DNA of 30,125 nucleotides, from positions 1-30,125 of the IMG/VR virus record IMGVR_UViG_3300023115_000075; one strand, 5' to 3'. This document shows, piece by piece, positions 17,983-30,125 of this stretch. The position numbers were made by a program, and so were the translations under genes. Position 1 is the first letter of the stretch; every line of letters starts with the position of its first letter. Origin of the DNA: a virus. The notes under the pieces were generated by a model. That model worked only from the letters and a program-made list of their open reading frames with translations. It ran no database searches and was not told where the DNA came from.

Positions 17983-18414
17983 ATGAACGCAATTATTTGT
18001 AGTGGTGCATTATTTTATGCACTAGATACCAAAAGATTTTTATTACTACACAGAGCAAATGGTAGAAAAAATAAACTATGGGGATTAGTTGGAGGCACCA
18101 ATGAAGGTGTTGAAACTCCATGGGAAGGTTTACAAAGAGAAATAAAAGAAGAAATTGGTAGTGTTGATATTAAGAAAACTATTCCATTAGAAACATTTAT
18201 CAGCAACGATGACAAGTTTCATTTCCATACATATCTTTGTGTAACAGAAAAAGAATTTTTACCTAAACTGAATTTAGAACATGACGGATATTGTTGGGTA
18301 AGTTTTGGTATGTGGCCAAAACCTCTACATTTTGGTTTGCATAACACTCTCAAGAGTAAAACTAATACACAAAAATTAGAAACAGTTATTCAGCTTGTTG
18401 ATATGATTGCTTAA
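17983..18414 (+). CDS. Nudix hydrolase
   Basis: 143 aa. A complete Nudix box is present at residues 38-60: G-x5-E (G38, E44), x7, then REIKEEIG (52-59). This is the Mg-binding loop that cleaves nucleoside diphosphate-X substrates. The rest fits the compact Nudix alpha/beta/alpha fold (ALFYALDTKRFLLLHRA before the box, HFHTYLCV after it). The substrate cannot be deduced. Phage Nudix enzymes act on (d)NTPs, ADP-ribose, dinucleoside polyphosphates or RNA caps. The gene starts 12 nt after gp15 without a clear Shine-Dalgarno or its own promoter, so it is probably transcribed with gp14-gp15. Its last 29 nt overlap, tail to tail, the glycosyltransferase-repeat gene on the other strand. Confidence 0.9.
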   Translation: MNAIICSGALFYALDTKRFLLLHRANGRKNKLWGLVGGTNEGVETPWEGLQREIKEEIGSVDIKKTIPLETFISNDDKFHFHTYLCVTEKEFLPKLNLEHDGYCWVSFGMWPKPLHFGLHNTLKSKTNTQKLETVIQLVDMIA

Positions 18415-21004
18415 ACTGTTCTTCTAGCCATTCAAAATCATTTATCTTTTTTAATGCCTCAGGATCGTTTACAGAACTTTCACCGTATTTTTTACCAAGA
18501 ATAGCACCCGCAATTGCAGCATCTCCAAACGGTTTATCTGATCCTTTTGTACACCATGCATCTAATCTAAATTGTGTTTCGTCATCTTTTTGTCTGTCAA
18601 TGCTACGGCTTGCTAGTTTTACACACTCACGGAAGCCACTACGCCATGCACTAAATGCATCTGTATTAAATGCAGTTGTATTACTCATTTCAGGTATTGC
18701 TTTGAAATTTTTACTAATACTTGTTGTCATGTCAGGTTTGCTTGTATCCATGTCAATTGTTAATTGTCTTGGTAACAACTTAACGCCACCATATCCATAT
18801 ACAAGACTATTAATAGGATTATAGCTACGCCAAACGTAAACTGTGCTACGCCCGTCTATGTCATATCTTGCTATTTGATAATCAAAATTAAATGTATCAA
18901 TTATTTGTGCATCGCCGTCTACTACATAAAACATTTCTGTCTCAGCAGTTTTTGCTGCCATAATATGCGCTTGGTGAATACCTTCTACACCGTGAACTCT
19001 GTGTATAACTCTATCAGGAAATTGTTGTTTTAATTTTTCAAAATTTTCATCTGCATTTGGTTCGTTATAACTAATAAAAACAATATCATAAGGTTTAGGT
19101 ACACTTGCTACTTGATCATATTCTTTTTTAATTGCTAAAAATCTATAATCAATTTCACGTTGTGTTAAAGGTTTGTGTACATTGGTTAGCATAACACCAT
19201 CATAAAAATCTTTGTTTTTCCAAACGTGATTAATTTTTCTTTCATATTGATTATGATAGCTTATATAAAAATTCCAATCAAAATCTTTTTCAATTTCGAT
19301 GTCTTCGTTTATCATAAAAAACATTTCGTTATCAGTATCAGCTAATGCTTTTTCATAATCTTCAAACGTGTTTACAGTGAACACAGGATATGGTTTTGGA
19401 TTGCTTACTACAATATCCCATTCTTTTTTCTTAATATAAAATCTGTGTTCTACTTCTTTTTCACTTACTAATAAATGTCTGCTAAACAGTACAACACCGT
19501 CTGTGTGTTTGCCGTTTTTGAAAATATGATTTATTTCTCTATCGTATCTATTGTGATGACTAAAGTAGAAATCAAATTCCCAATCGTTGGCAATTTCTAC
19601 ATCACTAGGTACACCCCAAAACATTTCGCTTGTTGAATTATACAATGCTTCTGTATAATCTTCGTAATTGTTTATTGTAAAAATATCATATTTTTTTGGA
19701 GTGCTTGCAATTTTATCATGTTCTTTTTTATCAATATAGAATCTATGTAGTAATTCTTTTTTGCTTACTTCAGCACTGGTGCTGTATAAAACAATACCAT
19801 CATAGTGTTCTCCATTCTTAAAAACATGAGTAATGTCTCTATCTAAAACATTTGTTTCATTGAAATAATCGTCCCATTCAAACTGCTGGTTTGGAATAAC
19901 ATCACTTGGAATACCCCAAAACATGTTTGTGGTACTGTGCTGTAATGCTTCTAGGTAGTCTTCATACGTATCAATAGTAAAGCGTTCAAACTGCTTGCTT
20001 CTACTAACAACCTTGTTGTGTTCAATTCTATTTGCTAAAAATCTATATTCAATTTCTCTTTCACTTACTGGTGCATTTTTACTGAATAAAACAACACCAT
20101 CGTATTTGTTTTTGTTTTTCCAAACATGATTGCTATTACGACTTGTATCTTGATGGCTTAGATAAAAATCAAAAACACTTTCGTCTAATATTTCAATGTC
20201 ACTAGGAACACCCCAGAATAAATCTGTTGTAGATTTTTCCATTGCTTCTAGATATTGCTCATATGTGTTAATTTCAAATCTGTCGTATTTTCTTGGCGTA
20301 CTTGCCATAATACGTATTTCTTTTTTGTTTGCAAAAAATCTATGTTTTAGCTCTCTATCAGTAACACGATAATGTTTTGGTACTAGTGCAACACCATCTA
20401 GTTGATCAATGTCACCGTTACCAAATACATGAACATAATCGTAACTCCATTCGTCCGGTGTATAACTGAACTTAAATGTATCTCTAATCATTATGTCATC
20501 ATACACTAACCAAAACATATCTGTGTTGCTGCGTTGTTGTGCTTGTTCAAATGATTCTACAACCTGTAAATTAGGTATACGTTTAATAAGTTCTGCATGA
20601 CTTGTTCTGTCATCTCCTATGTAAAAAACTTCAAACTTTTCTTTACCATAATAAGGATCATACTCACCACAAATATAACTGTGTTTTTTTGTTTCATAAC
20701 TGCCTGGTTTTGTAGGAACTAGTTGTACTTTACTCCAGCTCATAACTTCTCTGCTTTTCTTGTATACATATGGAAAAGCATGAATATAGTAGTCATCATA
20801 TTGTGGTCTAAAGTACCAAGGAAAACTATCGTAAATTTTTATATCAGGATCTACAAGCCAAACATAATCAACAGATCCAACCCAATCTTCTATTTCAATT
20901 TCATTATTAACAACAGGATACTGATCAAAGATATGCTTTTTTAGATAGTCTTGTCCATTATGTACAGGATGATTAAATCTTTCAAACTTATCTATTGCTC
21001 TCAT
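18386..21004 (-). CDS. Tandem glycosyltransferase-like repeat protein
   Basis: 872 aa, no signal peptide. Residues 636-~760 form a GT-A glycosyltransferase-like module (YDIVFISYNEPNADENF, later HQAHIMAAKTAETEMFYVVDGDAQI) with a candidate metal-binding DxD at D696/D698. Residues 237-635 are four near-regular 99-100-residue repeats of pattern TYEDYLEAL..ST..MFWGVPSDVEI, then REINHVWKN, DGVVLFS, VSEREIEHRF. They align with the second half of the C-terminal module, but PSD or NED replaces DGD. Two more diverged copies lie at about 1-114 (DPD) and 115-236 (YDD). The C-terminal 110 residues (SGFRECVKLASRS onward, AWCTKG) form another conserved segment. It overlaps the small glycosyltransferase gene by 4 nt (ATGA). 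Function is inferred: sugar transfer or glycan binding, possibly acting on fibres. No nucleotide-sugar specificity can be read. Confidence 0.75.
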   Translation of the reverse strand: MRAIDKFERFNHPVHNGQDYLKKHIFDQYPVVNNEIEIEDWVGSVDYVWLVDPDIKIYDSFPWYFRPQYDDYYIHAFPYVYKKSREVMSWSKVQLVPTKPGSYETKKHSYICGEYDPYYGKEKFEVFYIGDDRTSHAELIKRIPNLQVVESFEQAQQRSNTDMFWLVYDDIMIRDTFKFSYTPDEWSYDYVHVFGNGDIDQLDGVALVPKHYRVTDRELKHRFFANKKEIRIMASTPRKYDRFEINTYEQYLEAMEKSTTDLFWGVPSDIEILDESVFDFYLSHQDTSRNSNHVWKNKNKYDGVVLFSKNAPVSEREIEYRFLANRIEHNKVVSRSKQFERFTIDTYEDYLEALQHSTTNMFWGIPSDVIPNQQFEWDDYFNETNVLDRDITHVFKNGEHYDGIVLYSTSAEVSKKELLHRFYIDKKEHDKIASTPKKYDIFTINNYEDYTEALYNSTSEMFWGVPSDVEIANDWEFDFYFSHHNRYDREINHIFKNGKHTDGVVLFSRHLLVSEKEVEHRFYIKKKEWDIVVSNPKPYPVFTVNTFEDYEKALADTDNEMFFMINEDIEIEKDFDWNFYISYHNQYERKINHVWKNKDFYDGVMLTNVHKPLTQREIDYRFLAIKKEYDQVASVPKPYDIVFISYNEPNADENFEKLKQQFPDRVIHRVHGVEGIHQAHIMAAKTAETEMFYVVDGDAQIIDTFNFDYQIARYDIDGRSTVYVWRSYNPINSLVYGYGGVKLLPRQLTIDMDTSKPDMTTSISKNFKAIPEMSNTTAFNTDAFSAWRSGFRECVKLASRSIDRQKDDETQFRLDAWCTKGSDKPFGDAAIAGAILGKKYGESSVNDPEALKKINDFEWLEEQFKQSYQQAE
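19100..20296. repeat. Four ~300-bp in-frame repeats in the glycosyltransferase-like gene
   Basis: Protein repeats 3-6 of the 872-aa product (residues 237-335, 336-435, 436-535, 536-635) correspond to 20000-20296, 19700-19999, 19400-19699 and 19100-19399. Three of the four units are exactly 100 codons and one is 99. Motif order is the same in each, while DNA identity is only moderate, so this is an old duplication series. Confidence 0.9.
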
Positions 21005-21585
21005 AATAGGTGTGCCTTTGTTCCAATGTGTGCTAACACTATGTCAGCATCTAACCAAACATCTATGCCGTGATGCATTGCTTGATTACAAAAATATATA
21101 TCTTCGCCACCAAATGTATCGGTGCCTTTATTGTATTCATGAGAAAACCAAGGTTTAGGTAACTCACTGTACACACTGGCTTTGGTCAACATACAACCCA
21201 TGCCTACACCCCATATTTTGTGTAGCCCTGTTTTCTTATCAAATCTTTTATCAGTATTGTTAGGATCTGTAAAAGCAACACTACGATAAGGAGCATATCG
21301 TGTGCTATAGTTTGCTGCAACAATATCTTTATCGTGTGCAGCCAATCTTTCAAAAACATTATGAGGAAAATGAATATCACTGTCTAACCAAAGTATATGA
21401 CTCGGATTAGTTTTAAGTGCTTCATTTACAAGTGCTGTACGCTGATCAACAATAACACTACCTACAATAATGTGCAAGTCATAGTCAATAGACTTACTGG
21501 TAAGTCTACTGGTTAAAAATGCTAATTGTTTTGCAAAGGCAGTGTGTACAGTATCTCTAGCAGGAATACAAATGCTAAGTTTCAT
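21001..21585 (-). CDS. Small GT-A glycosyltransferase (family 2-like)
   Basis: 194 aa, short but complete-looking. The N-terminus KLSICIPARDTVHTAFAKQL is the usual first strand. Then come LHIIVGSVIVDQRTALVNEAL and ILWLDSDIHFP, with the DxD metal/nucleotide-sugar motif at D68-S-D70. GVGMGCMLTKASVY (about 126-139), GGEDIYFCNQAMHHGIDVW (159-177) and AHIG (185-188) match the acceptor-side Gly-rich loop, catalytic acidic 'ED' and late His of such enzymes. Expected reaction: transfer of a sugar from a nucleotide-sugar donor. It overlaps both neighbours (1 nt upstream, 4 nt downstream) in a three-gene operon next to the tail fibre gene, suggesting decoration of fibre or another virion protein. It could alternatively modify host glycans. 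Confidence 0.85.
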   Translation of the reverse strand: MKLSICIPARDTVHTAFAKQLAFLTSRLTSKSIDYDLHIIVGSVIVDQRTALVNEALKTNPSHILWLDSDIHFPHNVFERLAAHDKDIVAANYSTRYAPYRSVAFTDPNNTDKRFDKKTGLHKIWGVGMGCMLTKASVYSELPKPWFSHEYNKGTDTFGGEDIYFCNQAMHHGIDVWLDADIVLAHIGTKAHLL

Positions 21586-21965
21586 TACAACATTGTGCTT
21601 GGTACAGTTTCCTGGTTAAGATCTTTTTCTGCTGCAATAGTAAGTTGGTTCCAATTACGTGCTGATTGTGTAGCAACTTTTACACATTCTTGAAAATCAT
21701 CTTCTGACAAACTAGCCATTTTAATCATGTTCTCTGGCTGCACTTTACCAATAGTTAGTAGGTCAGCACCTGCTGCTTTACCGAATGTCATAATCCAATG
21801 GATTCTGTCATCATCGTCTGGAATATCCATTGCATCAATTTCTTTATTAATTTCAATTTCTAATTGCGCATCGCCAATTTCCAGTGTTTTGAGAATTGCT
21901 CTCTTACGAGATTTTGTATATGCTTGTGCTAAGTCAACATTTAAGACTTCATAGAGTGATTTCAT
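21585..21965 (-). CDS. Hypothetical protein at the head of the glycosyltransferase operon
   Basis: 126 aa, acidic, helical by eye, no signal or membrane segment, function unknown. The middle (DDRIHWIMTFGKAAGADLLTIG) is its most distinctive part. The segment SEDDFQECVKVATQSARNWN (about 87-106) resembles SGFRECVKLASRSIDRQ in the 872-aa product two genes downstream, sharing F-x-E-C-V-K-x-A-x-x-S. A strong AAAGGAG lies 8 nt before the ATG and a consensus sigma70-like promoter lies further upstream. The stop overlaps the glycosyltransferase start. A helper role for the enzymes is a guess based on coupling and the shared motif. Confidence 0.8.
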   Translation of the reverse strand: MKSLYEVLNVDLAQAYTKSRKRAILKTLEIGDAQLEIEINKEIDAMDIPDDDDRIHWIMTFGKAAGADLLTIGKVQPENMIKMASLSEDDFQECVKVATQSARNWNQLTIAAEKDLNQETVPSTML

Positions 21966-22283: not shown

Positions 22284-25200
22284 TTATTTATCTGCTAGTT
22301 TTTTAACTATTTCTTTTAGTTCATCAATTTGTTTTTGCTGTTCCTTAAACGCTTCAATAAACGCACCTGCCATTGCTCCGTAATTAACAGTTTTCATACC
22401 GTTGTCTTCTACATGTACAACTTCTGGGAAATATTGTTCAACTTCTTGAGCAATCACACCCATGTGTTTACGTATTGTATCTTCTTGATCAGTACGAGTA
22501 AATGTTACACCACGTATGCTTAGGATCTTAGTTAAAGGATCTGCAATAACTTCAATGTTGTCTTTGATTCTAGCATCTGAATATGCTGTAACTTCGCCTG
22601 TGACAGTTAGGTTACTGCTACTATCCAATGTCATTGCTACTGTACCGCCTGAACCTGGGTTGTTTTCAGTATCGCTGTGCGTACCGCCTCTATGGAAACT
22701 AAATCTACTAGCACTACGCAAGTATGTTGTACTGCCTTGTACACCAATACCGTAGTTTGTGCTCCACAAGTTGATCATCTGACGTGTACTACTACCAAAC
22801 GATAAGATAGCACTCATTGTATCGTTTACGTCACTACGTAAGAACTGTGTACTATCAATACCGTCAAGTGTGTCAGCATCATCAGCACCAATACCCGTAA
22901 GTCCACTACCGTCTCCTGAGAAGCTATTAGCTGTAATGTTACCAGTAATGTTAATGCTACCTGCACCACTTAGTGTGCCAGAGAAACTGTCGTTAGCATC
23001 AGCACGTAAAAACGATCCACTATCAAGTCCATCTAGGTTATCAGCACTTAGTCCGCTACCAGCACCGTCATTACCTGAGTGCCAAACAGTGTATGTATTT
23101 GTTCCGTCCCAGAATTGAAGTCCGCTTGTACCGCCATCAATGTTAACTCTAGTGTTGCCACCTTCGTTAGCAATGTAAATAACATCGCCTGAATCAGCAT
23201 ACTGCATGTAAGCTCTACGTGTTGCACCTTGATACCAACTAATGTATGGCGAACCTGTTGAGCTTGTATCAGCAAAACGCATTTGTTCGCCGCTTCTACT
23301 TGTAGTAATCAACCCTGTAGCAGTATCGTCTGCATCACTGCGTAGGAAACTTGTGCTATCTAAGCTATCTAGTGTCTCTGCATTAACGCTTGAAAGTCCA
23401 CTACCATTACCGGTAAATGTACTTGTACCAATATTAATGTTGCCAAATCCACTAGTAATACTACCTGCGTTTAGAGCACCAGTACCGGTTAGGTTACTGT
23501 ATGTTCCGTCAATACGTGCGTTAGGCACTGTACCACTTGCTAGGTTACCTGCTGCAAGTGCTTGTATACCTGCACCATTTGTTGTATTCAAACTACCTGC
23601 ATAGATAGCACCTACTACACCCATACCGCCTGCAAGTCTTACAGCACCGGTAGCAGTATCAACTGCTGCACTTGTATCGGTAAATGTTTTGACTCCTGCC
23701 ATTGATTGGTTGCCACCAAGTCTAGCACCGTCTACTGTTCCTGATGTAATATTATCAGCATTCAGTGATCCTAGTCCACTACCATTACCGGTAAATGTAC
23801 TTGTACCAATATTAATGTTGCCAAAACTTGAAGTAATACTACCAGCAGCCAATGCTCCTACTGTTGTTAGGCTACTTGTTACAACCGCACTTCCTAATGT
23901 TGTTGCATTAAGTACACTGGTGTTGTTGATTCTGTATTCTTTAGTGCTTATTAGATTTACATGTTCACTAAAGTCCCAGCTATCATTTGTATTACTCCAT
24001 GTAATTGTGTGGTTAGTACTACCTAACAATGTAATACCGCCGCCATTAGCAGTTGTATCACTAGGTATTGCTACTTTACCTATTTCAATATTTTTGTCTT
24101 CAACTTGTAGCGTTGTAGTATCTAAAGTAGTTGTTGTACCGTTAACTGTTAAGTCTCCAGTTATTACAAGATTACCTGCAATATCTGTATTACCAGTTGC
24201 CCAATCCATTACGACTTTGTTTAGACCATCACCAAACTTGATATCACCGTCTGCATCAATTTGCATACGTTGTGTTGCTGCTGTGTAGAAATCAAGTTGA
24301 TCGTTATCTGATCCTACACTTGCCTCAGCAACAATATACGAGTCTTGATCGCCATCAATAACACCGCCAAGCTCTGCCCAACGTGTACCGTCATAGCCTT
24401 CAAATCTTAGTAATTGGCTATTGAAACGTGCGTCACCTTGTACAGGAGAACCTGGTCTTGCTGCTGTGTTACCAACAGGTAACTTGATTGCACCATCATC
24501 TGAGAAATTGGTGTATCCTGTGATTTCAGTTATACCACCTGCATTTACACGTATTCTAACTTGTGAATCATTTTGTACTTGTCCTGTAGATCCTACATCG
24601 CCAGTTCTAATTATTACATCACCGCCTGTTGCTGCGCCTGTACCTAAACCTCCTTCAATTGTAAGATCACCGCCTGCAACGTCAGTTCCTAATCCATCAG
24701 TACCTTTGATTTTACCGTTAGCTGGAGAAGAACTTGTTTCTGCATTACCAACAACAACAGTTTCGTTACGTAATACTAGGTTGTTGTTAATAGTTAACGA
24801 ACCTGCTGGTATATCTAAAGGATCAGCAGTTACAAGGTCATCAACTCTAATTGTAAATGATGTAGCAGTTGGCGTAGCACCACTTACTGGCCATGTACCG
24901 TCTAGGTTCGCCACTGTGCTGCTTGCAATGTTGATTGTATCACCTGGACTAATACCTAATGTATATGGTGTGTATGTAAACGATAGAGCTACACCAGATA
25001 ATATAGTTCCAGTTGTTGCTGCACTCAAGTAAATTGCATCCTCGGTAACACCACTGACTGTTGTGTTACTTGGAATACTTGCACTACCGCCAACAATCAT
25101 ACCTGCTAGAATGCCTGTTGTGTCATTCATGATAACTTCTTTGATTGCGTTGTCTGTAACTTCGGCTGTGCTTTGAGTTACTGATTCTAAGTTTACTGCA

Positions 25201-28200
25201 ACATCTCTGGCAGCAGTAGCTTCATAACTTGCAACATATGTAAACAAGTTTCTTGCACCATTTGGGCTACCAACAGTTATGTTTGTAGCAGAGCCGCCTA
25301 TTTTCAAACTTGTAACATTTTCATCATAAATTCTACCTGCACCAATACTTGATGAAGTAAGAGCAGCAGAACCAACGTCCAATCCTTCTGCAAGATCAAG
25401 TGCTGTACCCCACTCAGGTGTTGTACCATTTGACTTTAAGAAGTTGTTTGCTCTACCAATGTTTAGTGTATTCAATGTACTTGCAGACTGAGCATATAGT
25501 ATGTCACCAATTGCATATGTACCAATACCAGTACCACCTCTAGTAACTGGAACCAAACTGGTTAAGTTTGCAGGGTTTAGGAAGTATGCACTGTCCAAAC
25601 TATCAAGTGTACCAGCATCAATAACGCCGTCTTTAATGAATACTTGTCCTGTGCCTCCAGCATCTACGTCAAATTGAGACTGTAAGAACCTACTTGTTCC
25701 TAGTGTAGAAAATGTTCCTAGTGGATCATAGTCAGCATTAGCAATACCAATATTAACTGGATCACCGTAAAACTCTCCGCTTAGACTCGAACCTGTAAGT
25801 GTAATTGGGTTATCTGTTGTTGTTGCAACTTTCAAACTTTGTACAACAGTTTTATAACTACTATCACCAAACAATGCTGTATCACTGTTTGGAACACCTG
25901 ATGCTGCAAGTCGACTTGGAGATACTGTACCAGAAATAATGTTTTCTGCGTCAATGTTTGTAACAGCAAGTGTGTTCCAGTTTGCAATCAATCTACTTGA
26001 AGTATTAATAACACTTTCAATTTGTACGTTATTAGTAATTACTTCAGCACTACCCGTACCTGTTGTAGTAATATCTTGTGCGTTTGTAACCAAATCGTTA
26101 ATACTGCTCAAAGCATCTGAACGTAGTGCGTGTATAGTAAATGAGTTTGTTGTAACAGATCCTACAAAGAATCTTGCACCACTGTCAACTGGTCCACCTG
26201 CTCCGCCGGTACTAAACAATTCGTTTGCAGTAGAACCGTCATCTAATGATTCAATACGTATTGCATCACCTGTTGTTAGTCCATGTCCTTCAACTACAAT
26301 ACTATTATCAGTTGTGTTTACAGTGTAACGTGTAATGTTGTGATTGTTGTTTGCAGGAGTACTTGTAAATTCTACTTTGTTTAATAGAGCAAAGCCTTCA
26401 TACAATTCAATTGTATTTGCATCGATGCGTTTTACATAGTAAACTTGTTGGTTTAACAAACCACCAATTGGAACATTTGCTAGTGTATCGTATGTTACAG
26501 GATCACCGTTGCTTAGTCCGTGATTAGTAATTGTAATTCTATATGTACTGTAATCAACAGCACCACCACCGCCTACATCACCTGCTAGGAAGTTATGTGT
26601 AATAATATCGTCTAAGTTGATATCTTTTGAAGTTGCAACAGCAGTGTTATCTTCAACATAGTCTAAAGATGAAGCACTAGCAACAAATAGCTCGCCGCCA
26701 ATAATGTTTACGTAGATACGTTTTTCAATACCTGTAACTTCAATTTCAAAGCCACTACCGGTTCCGCCTACATCGCTTGCATTAACTTCTAACAAGTCTC
26801 CTTGTGCATAACCTGTACCACCTCTGTTGATATCAACATCTGTAATTTGTCCTGCTGTAACTGTGATGTTGGCTTTTGCTCCTGTACCAGATCCTGTTTT
26901 TGCCTGTAAAGGAACAGATTCGTATACTTTATTTCCTAATACAGGTGTATAACCAGATCCGCCTACAATGTTTGCGTTGTCTAAATTAGCAGCAACGCCG
27001 CTTTTGAATTCAGTAACAGCACCTTGAGCGCCGCCGTCAGCACTTGTAACAATAGTGCGCACTGTACCAGTTGCTGCTGCACTTGCTTTGGTTGGATCGG
27101 CACTATCTACGTTTGCATAGGTAAATGTTGTTGATGTTGGAACACTTAGAACAAGACCATTTTCGTTATATGTTTCGTCTGTAGTGTTCAAAATTTGAAC
27201 AGTGTTACCTACTTGTAAATTGTGTGCTGCACTGGTTGTTATAGTAGCAACGTCACTGTTACGTTCTGCAAATGTTAAACTACATGTTTCGTCTGTTGTA
27301 AACGTATAACTTTGAGTTGGATCCATTACTAAGTATTGGCTTGAATTTGAACTACGTAGGAACCAGTTGTCGATAATCTCTGTGCTTGGTCCTTTAGATG
27401 TAGGTGCAACACCTGAATCAACACCGTTAACAAACAAGTTAGGTGCTGTTCCGCTAGTATCCCATGGATCTCCGGTTGAGTCATCCTCGTCATTCCATGC
27501 TCCATCAATAGTAACAACAAGTACGTTACCACTTAAAGCATAGTTACCTTTTGCATAACCGGTTGCACCGTCAATACCAGGCTGTGTAATAATATCACCA
27601 TCTGATGCTGTAAACAAGTTAGCACTCAATGTTAGTTCAACTTGTTCGTAGTTTTCAGTAGCAATGTCACCAGCTTTCAAATCAATAGCAGGAATATCAT
27701 CAACTTGTTCTAGTCGTGATTGATAACCATTTGTGTTTGTGTTTGTAAACTGACGTGTTGCAGGAATCAAGTCTGGATTAAGCTGACCGTTTACGTTCAA
27801 CTGAACAATAGCACCTGGAACAGCCGCAGTACTCACAGTTTTGTCAACAAAGCCACCTAGTCTGTTTGAAATAAAACTTCTTACTGCTAACTGTGTTGAC
27901 AATCTGCCATCACTAGGACCGCCGATCTCATCGTCGCCTAAGTTAACACTGGTTGAAATTTCTTCGATAGCAACATCAGACAGACTTAGACGTAGTGCGT
28001 CAAGTTCGTCCACCTGAACTTTGTTACGGAAGGTAATGTTACCAGTTCTGTTGAACGCTGTAATAAAATCACCAACTTTGAAGTCACCAAGTTCGTTTGT
28101 ACCTGATGAGTACACACGACCTGGTAATTCTTCAAACTGTTCGTATTCTGCTCTTGTATTACCGCCGTTTTGTGGTAGAGCGTTATAGTCTGTGCCTGAA

Positions 28201-30125
28201 CCTGCATATTCCCAAGTGTGTGCAGATGAGTTAACAACAGAAGGTCTGTGGAACCAACATTGCTTTTCTGGCAGTGCTGTCAAGTTTGTTAAACTTGAAC
28301 TACCGTCTGTAGCTGTAATACTAAATGTTGCAGTGCCTAAACCTAGTCTTGCACTTGTTTCATTAACACCGATAACAGTATTAGGAGTGCCAGCAGTATG
28401 GTCTTCATCAATTGTACTAGTTTCATCAAATTGTATTCTAAGTAGTGCTTGTCCTACTGCAACTTCTTCAATACTTACAACTAGTCTGCGCTCTCTTGGT
28501 TCCCAACTATAAACAATAGCACTATTGTTTTGTGCGCCTGTAGTACCTGTAATAGATCTACCAGGAACAAATTCATAACTTTCAGAACCTGATTCAAGTA
28601 TCAATGTTTGATATGTTTGATGCGAACTTAAAATTTCTTCTACATAAAATTCAATAACATCAGAGAAGAACTTGTGTGTTCCTGTGCTTGCTTCGATAAT
28701 GTTAACATCAAAATCCAAACTATCGTCAAACGCAAGTGTAAACTCATCTTCACTTAGAAGTTTTACATAGTACTGTTGTTCATCATCTAGTCCTCTAATA
28801 ACGTTGTTACCATTTGGATCGTAGATAACTTTTTGTCCATTAACAAACCCGTGTCCAACGATTGTAAAGATATTTGTTTCATCATTTACATCTACTGCAC
28901 CATCGAAAGTTGTTTCTGTAGGTGTAAGTTTATAATCGTTAGTGATATCACCTTCTGAACTAACTTCAGTTGGATCTGGCAAGTCTTGTGGATCATTGAT
29001 AATTGTGTTAACAATATCAAATCTACTACCAACAAAGTTTTGAACGTCTGCTGATACACCGGTAATGTATGTTAGAGCTTCTGTTTTTGCTTGTTCAATA
29101 GCTGCAATAGTTTGTAACTCTTGTCCACTGATACTGATACGTGAACTGTCTTGTAAGTTTTGTGTATAATATGCTAGACCAGCACTACGTGAATATCTGT
29201 TACCTGTATCCCAAGTGTCTTTGGCTGCCGCTTCAACAATAAGCTGAGTATCTCTATTACATTTTGATTCGTCGTATGTAAATCCATACCAAATGTTTGC
29301 TTGTATTTGGGTGTTGATATATTCTGTTACGTTCTGCGCAATGTTTATAGCACCAATAGTATCAAGCAATCCGTATGCTTCAGATTCGCTTCCTGTTACC
29401 CATGAAACATCTGGCTCAATAGTTGTAATTGGTGTAGCGCCTGTGCCGTCAATAAAATCAATAATTTCTTGTAATCTATCAGAAGCTGCTGTGGCTGCTG
29501 CTGCACTACCTGCGGCTGCACTAGTATCTTGTGTTTCAGCATTGCCTGCACTTACTGTTACAGTTGTTTCTAATATAACTTCGCTTAAAACAGTTTGCAG
29601 TCTGCCATATGCAGCAACAGTTTCTTCTTGCTGTCCTGTGCCATATTGTGCAGTCCCGTCAATGAAGTATGCTGCTGCTGCTAGTTTAGATTGTAAATTA
29701 CCGCCGTATGTTAAATCATACAGCAATCCATCAATAATTAATTTTGAATCTCTTAAACATTTTGCTTCATTGTAAACAAAGCCTGTAGAGAATGGAGCAG
29801 TGCCTGCTGCAATTTGTGTGTCAATCCATGCATTAACTTCTGCTGCAATAAAATCTTTGTTGTTGATCAGTTGCGTTACAGCATTTGCGTATCCGCTATC
29901 GCTTGCATTGTCACTACCACCAGTTGGTGTTGGTCTTGAATATGCTGCTGCAACACTGTCACCTGGCACGGTATTTTCATCGCCGTTGGTAATAATGTCA
30001 ATAATCTCATCCCATAGGGCATTTGATCTTGAAATTGCTGTAGCATCATTTAACAAATTACCAGTAAACGTTTTTGCTTGTCCAAATGCTGCAATGTGTT
30101 GATCTTTCTGTGCAGCAAATGTATC
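22284..30125 (-). CDS. Giant tail fibre/structural protein with S74 chaperone end (5'-truncated by window)
   Basis: At least 2613 aa. The frame stays open to the right edge, and the TTG at 30056 that an ORF finder would pick is internal. The N-terminal part has two KCxRD repeats (Y(D/N)E(A/S)KC-x-RD ... DxxxGxN..S) near 29752 and 29256, typical of giant marine T4-like structural proteins. The middle is beta-rich with repeated HGL-xxGD-x-V strands (near 28850, 27220, 26510, 26270). Then come repeated TSGTV/NINIG segments and LDxxDSxxFLRSD motifs (near 22855, 23015, 23350, 25600). The last 98 residues are a peptidase S74 intramolecular chaperone, with the Ser-Asp of YSDARIKDN (Ser at 22578-22580), HMGVIAQEVEQYFPEVV and a terminal coiled coil. 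S74 domains trimerise the fibre and cut themselves off before that Ser. Host-recognition fibre is the likely role. Confidence 0.9.
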   Translation of the reverse strand, partial: DTFAAQKDQHIAAFGQAKTFTGNLLNDATAISRSNALWDEIIDIITNGDENTVPGDSVAAAYSRPTPTGGSDNASDSGYANAVTQLINNKDFIAAEVNAWIDTQIAAGTAPFSTGFVYNEAKCLRDSKLIIDGLLYDLTYGGNLQSKLAAAAYFIDGTAQYGTGQQEETVAAYGRLQTVLSEVILETTVTVSAGNAETQDTSAAAGSAAAATAASDRLQEIIDFIDGTGATPITTIEPDVSWVTGSESEAYGLLDTIGAINIAQNVTEYINTQIQANIWYGFTYDESKCNRDTQLIVEAAAKDTWDTGNRYSRSAGLAYYTQNLQDSSRISISGQELQTIAAIEQAKTEALTYITGVSADVQNFVGSRFDIVNTIINDPQDLPDPTEVSSEGDITNDYKLTPTETTFDGAVDVNDETNIFTIVGHGFVNGQKVIYDPNGNNVIRGLDDEQQYYVKLLSEDEFTLAFDDSLDFDVNIIEASTGTHKFFSDVIEFYVEEILSSHQTYQTLILESGSESYEFVPGRSITGTTGAQNNSAIVYSWEPRERRLVVSIEEVAVGQALLRIQFDETSTIDEDHTAGTPNTVIGVNETSARLGLGTATFSITATDGSSSLTNLTALPEKQCWFHRPSVVNSSAHTWEYAGSGTDYNALPQNGGNTRAEYEQFEELPGRVYSSGTNELGDFKVGDFITAFNRTGNITFRNKVQVDELDALRLSLSDVAIEEISTSVNLGDDEIGGPSDGRLSTQLAVRSFISNRLGGFVDKTVSTAAVPGAIVQLNVNGQLNPDLIPATRQFTNTNTNGYQSRLEQVDDIPAIDLKAGDIATENYEQVELTLSANLFTASDGDIITQPGIDGATGYAKGNYALSGNVLVVTIDGAWNDEDDSTGDPWDTSGTAPNLFVNGVDSGVAPTSKGPSTEIIDNWFLRSSNSSQYLVMDPTQSYTFTTDETCSLTFAERNSDVATITTSAAHNLQVGNTVQILNTTDETYNENGLVLSVPTSTTFTYANVDSADPTKASAAATGTVRTIVTSADGGAQGAVTEFKSGVAANLDNANIVGGSGYTPVLGNKVYESVPLQAKTGSGTGAKANITVTAGQITDVDINRGGTGYAQGDLLEVNASDVGGTGSGFEIEVTGIEKRIYVNIIGGELFVASASSLDYVEDNTAVATSKDINLDDIITHNFLAGDVGGGGAVDYSTYRITITNHGLSNGDPVTYDTLANVPIGGLLNQQVYYVKRIDANTIELYEGFALLNKVEFTSTPANNNHNITRYTVNTTDNSIVVEGHGLTTGDAIRIESLDDGSTANELFSTGGAGGPVDSGARFFVGSVTTNSFTIHALRSDALSSINDLVTNAQDITTTGTGSAEVITNNVQIESVINTSSRLIANWNTLAVTNIDAENIISGTVSPSRLAASGVPNSDTALFGDSSYKTVVQSLKVATTTDNPITLTGSSLSGEFYGDPVNIGIANADYDPLGTFSTLGTSRFLQSQFDVDAGGTGQVFIKDGVIDAGTLDSLDSAYFLNPANLTSLVPVTRGGTGIGTYAIGDILYAQSASTLNTLNIGRANNFLKSNGTTPEWGTALDLAEGLDVGSAALTSSSIGAGRIYDENVTSLKIGGSATNITVGSPNGARNLFTYVASYEATAARDVAVNLESVTQSTAEVTDNAIKEVIMNDTTGILAGMIVGGSASIPSNTTVSGVTEDAIYLSAATTGTILSGVALSFTYTPYTLGISPGDTINIASSTVANLDGTWPVSGATPTATSFTIRVDDLVTADPLDIPAGSLTINNNLVLRNETVVVGNAETSSSPANGKIKGTDGLGTDVAGGDLTIEGGLGTGAATGGDVIIRTGDVGSTGQVQNDSQVRIRVNAGGITEITGYTNFSDDGAIKLPVGNTAARPGSPVQGDARFNSQLLRFEGYDGTRWAELGGVIDGDQDSYIVAEASVGSDNDQLDFYTAATQRMQIDADGDIKFGDGLNKVVMDWATGNTDIAGNLVITGDLTVNGTTTTLDTTTLQVEDKNIEIGKVAIPSDTTANGGGITLLGSTNHTITWSNTNDSWDFSEHVNLISTKEYRINNTSVLNATTLGSAVVTSSLTTVGALAAGSITSSFGNINIGTSTFTGNGSGLGSLNADNITSGTVDGARLGGNQSMAGVKTFTDTSAAVDTATGAVRLAGGMGVVGAIYAGSLNTTNGAGIQALAAGNLASGTVPNARIDGTYSNLTGTGALNAGSITSGFGNINIGTSTFTGNGSGLSSVNAETLDSLDSTSFLRSDADDTATGLITTSRSGEQMRFADTSSTGSPYISWYQGATRRAYMQYADSGDVIYIANEGGNTRVNIDGGTSGLQFWDGTNTYTVWHSGNDGAGSGLSADNLDGLDSGSFLRADANDSFSGTLSGAGSINITGNITANSFSGDGSGLTGIGADDADTLDGIDSTQFLRSDVNDTMSAILSFGSSTRQMINLWSTNYGIGVQGSTTYLRSASRFSFHRGGTHSDTENNPGSGGTVAMTLDSSSNLTVTGEVTAYSDARIKDNIEVIADPLTKILSIRGVTFTRTDQEDTIRKHMGVIAQEVEQYFPEVVHVEDNGMKTVNYGAMAGAFIEAFKEQQKQIDELKEIVKKLADK
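22285..22292 (-). promoter_or_regulatory. Possible late promoter GATAAATA at the fibre stop
   Basis: Minus-strand GATAAATAATAA formed by the last codons and stop of the fibre gene (GAT AAA TAA). It is ~90 nt before the 58-aa ORF. The hairpin lies between them, so its use is less certain than at other sites, and the codons alone could explain it. Confidence 0.35.
22578..22580 (-). other. Predicted S74 autocleavage serine codon
   Basis: The codon TCA encodes the Ser of YSDARIKDN, the conserved Ser-Asp pair of endosialidase-type intramolecular chaperones. Known members cleave just before this Ser, which would release a 98-residue C-terminal piece from the mature fibre. Confidence 0.7.
23395..23447. 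repeat. 53-bp direct repeat, copy 1 (fibre gene)
   Basis: Begins AGTCCACTACCATTACCGGT and ends TTGCCAAA. It is identical to 23773-23825. It encodes the fibre segment FGNINIGTSTFTGNGSGL. The identity at third codon positions, in a gene whose other repeats have diverged, indicates a recent duplication or gene conversion. Confidence 0.9.
23773..23825. repeat. 53-bp direct repeat, copy 2 (fibre gene)
   Basis: Identical to 23395-23447 and 378 bp (126 codons) away, so recombination between copies would remove or add a whole in-frame unit without breaking the fibre reading frame. Confidence 0.9.

Follow-up and report, generated by a model that had tools for sequence, protein, structure and literature searches.

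The 872-aa protein encoded on the minus strand at positions 18386..21004 carries a predicted GT-A glycosyltransferase domain at its C-terminus (the head), preceded by five degenerate copies of this head of about 100 aa each (modules 2-6) and by a weak, diverged relative of them at the N-terminus (module 1). The window, the whole 30,125-nucleotide stretch analyzed here (IMG/VR record IMGVR_UViG_3300023115_000075), is a fragment of a contractile-tail phage including terminase, sheath and tube genes. In it the array gene closes a conserved cassette that begins with a long tail fibre gene. We propose with moderate confidence that the protein glycosylates the virion, probably its fibre, and that the acceptor is docked by the non-catalytic array; acceptor, donor and array ligand are all inferred from the observations below.

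The open reading frame described in an earlier note on this sequence was confirmed. Since a BLASTP self-comparison of the protein returned the trivial self-match only, the repeats were examined by pairwise alignment against shuffled sequences and by profiles. Modules 2 to 6 are true repeats (33-56% pairwise identity, Z-scores of 17-43 against shuffles), the closest being modules 3 to 6 (39-56%, Z 30-43). They occupy residues 124-239 (module 2, 20288..20635), 240-338 (module 3, 19991..20287), 339-438 (module 4, 19691..19990), 439-538 (module 5, 19391..19690) and 539-637 (module 6, 19094..19390), all on the minus strand. Module 1 (residues 1-123, 20636..21004, same strand) is only weakly module-like: its best score, to module 2, is Z 6.1 and its profile E-value 0.05. 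Of the seven serial modules announced by the earlier note, modules 2-6 are true repeats and module 1 a weak relative. A profile of the terminal domain, built without any internal module, recognizes residues 1-637 with an E-value of 9e-26, while the best of 1000 shuffles reached 1.6e-5. A chance origin of the repeats was considered and is excluded by these shuffle-controlled alignments and by the profile test.

Profile-profile alignment relates the head to the internal modules (hhalign E 8.5e-11) and, more strongly, to the first-type module represented by module 2 (E 1.9e-18). These values show a common descent of the internal modules and the GT-A head. The first-type module corresponds to residues 1-112 of the 228-residue terminal domain and the internal modules to residues 41-110; the repeats are therefore the N-terminal, nucleotide-binding half of the head, and not its C-terminal half as had been claimed. 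Module 2 retains the β1-αA-β2 part of the GT-A fold, of which the internal modules lack the β1-αA stretch. The C-terminal part of the terminal domain (about 115 residues) is present once only in the protein.

The head itself (residues 638-872, 18389..19093, minus strand) consists of this nucleotide-binding half, with a DGD metal motif at residues 696-698 (18911..18919, minus strand), followed by the unique C-terminal helical half. A whole-protein AlphaFold2 model was obtained from 13 sequences (pLDDT 78.6). Residues 636-845 of this model match B4GALNT1 (Z 11.8, 141 aligned residues, 2.7 Å), WrtF (Z 10.7) and the capsid glycosyltransferase of PBCV-1 (Z 9.8), and many other GT-A chains were retrieved with Z-scores of 9-12 across about 130-143 residues. 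This agrees with the earlier assignment of the last module as a full GT-A domain. The nucleotidyltransferase IspD is nearly as close (Z 10.6). As nucleotidyltransferases of this type score about equally, the fold alone is no proof of a sugar transferase. For the modules, a joint model of modules 5 and 6 (residues 424-638, 34 sequences) reached a pLDDT of 92. Nearly all of its listed matches are GT-A or nucleotidyltransferase chains, but the best of them has a Z-score of 6.9, and single modules of about 100 residues likewise gave modest structural matches (Z below 8). A value of 6.9 is too low to convince from structure alone, but homology is established by the sequence profiles. The two-module model also matches two BFVD entries, A0A6J5LK21 and A0A6J5L5L5 (E 1e-8 and 2e-7), indicating that other arrays are present in sequence databases. 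The 872-aa protein has no sequence match in Pfam, PHROG, NCBIfam or PDB; the best Pfam signal, PF00535 in relative L052, is below the cut-off (E 0.0047). No match was found in annotated phages using tblastn with the 872-aa protein, a stand-alone head, the 126-aa protein of the cassette or a 1496-aa relative.

The loss of the metal motif is all-or-none, intact in heads and absent in modules. In the first set of homologues, D[GA]D occurs in 112 of 112 heads and D.D in none of 349 modules, where P, Y, N, S, W or H stands first in the motif. In the protein of the window, YDD replaces DxD in module 2, PSD is found in modules 3, 4 and 5 and NED in module 6. In a wider set, D.D is again absent (0 of about 311 modules; a single D.D row falls inside a head), and 53 of the 57 distinct cassette proteins with a head retain D[GA]D. 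The gradient of a decaying DxD described in the earlier note was not seen. Its suggestion that both terminal modules keep the metal motif holds for the C-terminal head; the DPD of module 1 is not conserved, occurring in just 5 of 56 relatives. Away from the metal site, six module residues (H54, N58, G64, L67, E78 and S95, module numbering) are conserved at 97-100%. The dN/dS ratio is 0.01-0.23 in every module, similar to that of the head (close relatives; dS nears saturation in more distant pairs), so that every module is under purifying selection. The modules are therefore functional units without a metal motif rather than decaying remnants. A catalytic head combined with non-catalytic repeats, the architecture first proposed, is well supported as a predicted activity by the GT-A fold, DxD conservation and the neighboring genes.

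The cassette has a conserved order: long tail fibre, 126-aa protein, Anp1-like glycosyltransferase and, last, the array gene. The fibre gene (22284..30125, minus strand) ends with a C-terminal Peptidase_S74 chaperone; its 5' part is cut by the end of the window and complete relatives are 2716-3920 aa long. It is followed by the 126-aa protein gene (21585..21965, minus strand), a conserved cassette member with a weak match to PHROG 1409 (unknown function), and by that of a 194-aa Anp1 (GT62)-like GT-A glycosyltransferase (21001..21585, minus strand). This gene directly precedes the array gene, and the two share four bases (ATGA, 21001-21004). Its product carries a DSD motif, of which D68 and D70 are invariant, and matches PF03452 across about 50 residues (E 8.3e-10, 39.0 bits for a cut-off of 28.8). 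On the other side, a Nudix hydrolase gene on the plus strand (17983-18414) converges on the array gene and overlaps its 3' end by 29 bases, an arrangement kept in the clade. Among the 56 proteins that have at least five modules, 55 are encoded next to the Anp1-like gene, and wherever a record extends far enough, the three upstream genes nearly always stand in this order. Glycosyltransferase genes lie beside a virion structural gene here, the fibre gene, as expected of a virion-glycosylation cassette. The nearest annotated homologues of the Anp1-like protein include those of MW202711 (42% identity) and of mycobacteriophage Redno2; in both, the gene follows the major capsid gene at a short distance, and more glycosyltransferase genes come after it in Redno2.

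Arrays of this kind occur in a large set of uncultured bacterial viruses, most of them aquatic. The homologues carry from 0 to 11 modules. The first set includes heads alone (59 proteins), heads with one (14), two (4), four (1), five (58), eight (1) or nine modules (1) and four two-head fusions; exactly five modules are thus found in 58 of the 60 proteins having five or more. The wider set, gathered by anchoring on the neighbor gene, covers 1 to 11 modules. In the module tree, the first-type modules form one clade (100/99) and modules group by position, so that modules at each position are orthologous between viruses. The additional modules of L019 and L020 are placed between the first module and the fourth from the head.

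In the first set modules seemed never to occur without a head. This idea was overturned by the wider set, where seven distinct cassette proteins have kept the array but carry either no head or a head without the DxD half. The last gene of the fibre cassette of a 382-kb virus (L247) encodes modules 1-2 only (277 aa, headless), and a GT-headed array is located 80 kb from this cassette beside a gene of the UDP-glucose/GDP-mannose dehydrogenase family. Such a separation of modules 1-2 from a distant headed array constitutes Rosetta-stone evidence that both work together. The cassette proteins L300 (347 aa) and L301 (848 aa) are also headless, and no frame-shifted head was seen in any forward frame of the 4.6 kb following the L301 array. 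L302, L305, L308 and L309 have lost the head's DxD half: the last module joins the C-terminal helical half directly, with PSN at the motif. The 330-kb record of L302 contains a second array with 6 modules and an intact DGD head. Each of the two large genomes whose cassette copy is headless or stripped therefore encodes an intact-headed array elsewhere. The persistence of arrays after loss of the head is evidence for an independent function of the array.

In the mechanism that we favor, the head would be a metal-dependent enzyme that transfers sugar from a nucleotide-sugar donor, as its predicted fold and invariant DxD suggest. The array, of five modules here and 1-11 in relatives, derives from truncated copies of the nucleotide-binding half of the head that lost the metal motif. 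It would most likely form a non-catalytic docking scaffold for a long acceptor of repetitive build, probably the tail fibre of the same cassette. The docked acceptor might then be modified by the head and the neighboring Anp1-like enzyme, either sequentially or at several sites. It is possible that the array binds sugar or fibre, as the fibre-linked cassette favors. The fibre-linked cassette and the capsid-adjacent homologues of the Anp1-like protein in MW202711 and Redno2 count in favor of virion glycosylation; virion glycans are known on the capsid and tail tube of mycobacteriophages, as cited in PMC12619734. Counted against this model are the seven headless or stripped proteins, which imply that catalysis is dispensable for the cassette protein, the headed arrays of other viruses that lie in clusters of radical-SAM and sugar-nucleotide genes, and the modest structural matches of single modules. 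The same seven proteins, in which modules 1-2 and the cassette persist, suggest an alternative: the protein may primarily be a repeat scaffold of GT origin, acting as fibre adaptor, assembly chaperone or sugar-binding arm and perhaps belonging to the virion, with catalysis optional and an active head kept in some viruses only. The variable array length, from 1 to 11 modules, and the strong conservation of module-specific residues fit this explanation. We nevertheless consider it unlikely, though the most serious of the competitors, given the retention of D[GA]D in both sets and the intact-headed second array of both large genomes. A further proposal, made tentatively and with less confidence than fibre glycosylation, is that the array represents a new class of repeat scaffold, in which a half-domain that bound nucleotide sugars lost its active site and was multiplied into a binding arm of 1-11 units, working in tail-fibre maturation or recognition even where the head is lost.

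Alternatively, the enzyme might modify glycans of the host surface, for receptor masking or superinfection exclusion, or build a polysaccharide, with the array binding the growing chain. The GDP-mannose dehydratase and UDP-glucose/GDP-mannose dehydrogenase family genes near headed relatives in other viruses fit this idea, as does the resemblance of the head to glycan-building GT-A enzymes. It appears rather improbable: in the clade of the window the cassette is fibre-linked, inspection of the cassette without a dedicated program revealed no gene for a lipid carrier or membrane protein, and the homologues of the Anp1 partner lie in virion structural modules. The earlier note had suggested a ruler, and serial modules of constant size in counts of 1 to 11 might indeed set or measure the length of a fibre or glycan. 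However, module number (2-11) does not correlate with the length of the adjacent fibre (2716-3920 aa; Spearman 0.21, P 0.42, n = 17 viruses with a complete fibre gene, not phylogenetically independent), and the predominance of exactly five modules also speaks against a ruler, which we judge very unlikely. Equally little credit can be given to DNA hypermodification resembling that of the T4 alpha/beta-GT or of TET-associated glycosyltransferases. Virus-encoded glycosyltransferases often act on DNA, according to PMC12619734 and references therein, but the cassette is linked to a fibre and not to nucleotide metabolism. Pfam scans up to E 10 gave no match to TAGT or T4-GT profiles, an absence that is weak evidence. 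No Tet_JBP match was obtained among 10 relatives in a search whose positive control was also silent, and a thymidylate-synthase family exceeded the cut-off in one large record out of 10, some of which are fragments.

Glycosyltransferases with a non-catalytic accessory part of GT fold are already known; the array form, its length range, the half-domain unit and the fibre cassette are undescribed as far as we searched. In human LH3 (PLOD3), a GT-fold accessory (AC) domain is regarded as non-catalytic, with a suggested role in substrate recognition (PMC6082870). LH3 thus resembles the array protein in joining a catalytic GT-A domain to a second, non-catalytic and possibly acceptor-binding domain of GT fold, but it has one nearly full-length accessory domain rather than 1-11 truncated half-domains in series, which here are found in bacterial viruses. 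The CHSY/CHPF chondroitin polymerase, the K4 chondroitin polymerase and LARGE1, which appeared among the structural matches, also have several GT-A domains per chain or complex; these are full domains, mostly catalytic, and are not known to form half-domain arrays. The Redno2 cluster (Omegavirus, gp14-gp19, behind the major capsid gene) shares an Anp1-like homologue and additional glycosyltransferase genes beside a virion gene. Mycobacteriophage clusters of this type differ by the absence of a module array, by being adjacent to the capsid gene instead of the fibre gene, and by more numerous, single-domain enzymes. The PBCV-1 capsid glycosyltransferase (PDB 2p72) is likewise a viral GT-A enzyme of virion-protein glycosylation, but has a single domain, belongs to an algal virus and shows about 11% identity. 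The two BFVD proteins, from uncultured Caudovirales, are similar in predicted structure, yet share 11-12% identity and are uncharacterized. We know of no described array of truncated non-catalytic GT-like domains, single ones such as the LH3 accessory domain being known, and none was found in the literature searched, whose coverage excluded most subscription journals.

An evolutionary series survives in living viruses, comprising heads alone, heads with every number of modules from 1 to 11, and heads secondarily deleted, which makes the array a tractable system for how an enzyme domain becomes a binding repeat. The array is tied to the tail fibre in a group of phages that is widespread in aquatic settings and has no match in annotated phages, which suggests that fibre glycosylation may be common there.

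In other viruses, some on contigs above 300 kb, headed relatives lie in radical-SAM and sugar-nucleotide clusters and not directly behind a fibre gene, although several clusters of the radical-SAM type sit a few kb downstream of fibre-like genes. Head relatives flanked by several radical-SAM proteins, some with SPASM domains, were observed in L021, L023, L037, L040 and L052. These clusters also hold a GDP-mannose dehydratase, a protein of the UDP-glucose/GDP-mannose dehydrogenase family and a fatty acid desaturase, and may represent an undescribed biosynthetic cluster. Some five-module relatives continue for about 225 aa beyond the head at their C-terminus, in L015 (5962-9297) and also in L120, L127, L133, L134 and L138. 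A second paralogue of about 300 aa, a head-type glycosyltransferase with DGD or DAD (profile E about 1e-38), is present in L049, L053, L055-L061, L065-L073 and L076; it is located directly upstream of the terminal-type glycosyltransferase or is fused to it (L048, L052 and L068).
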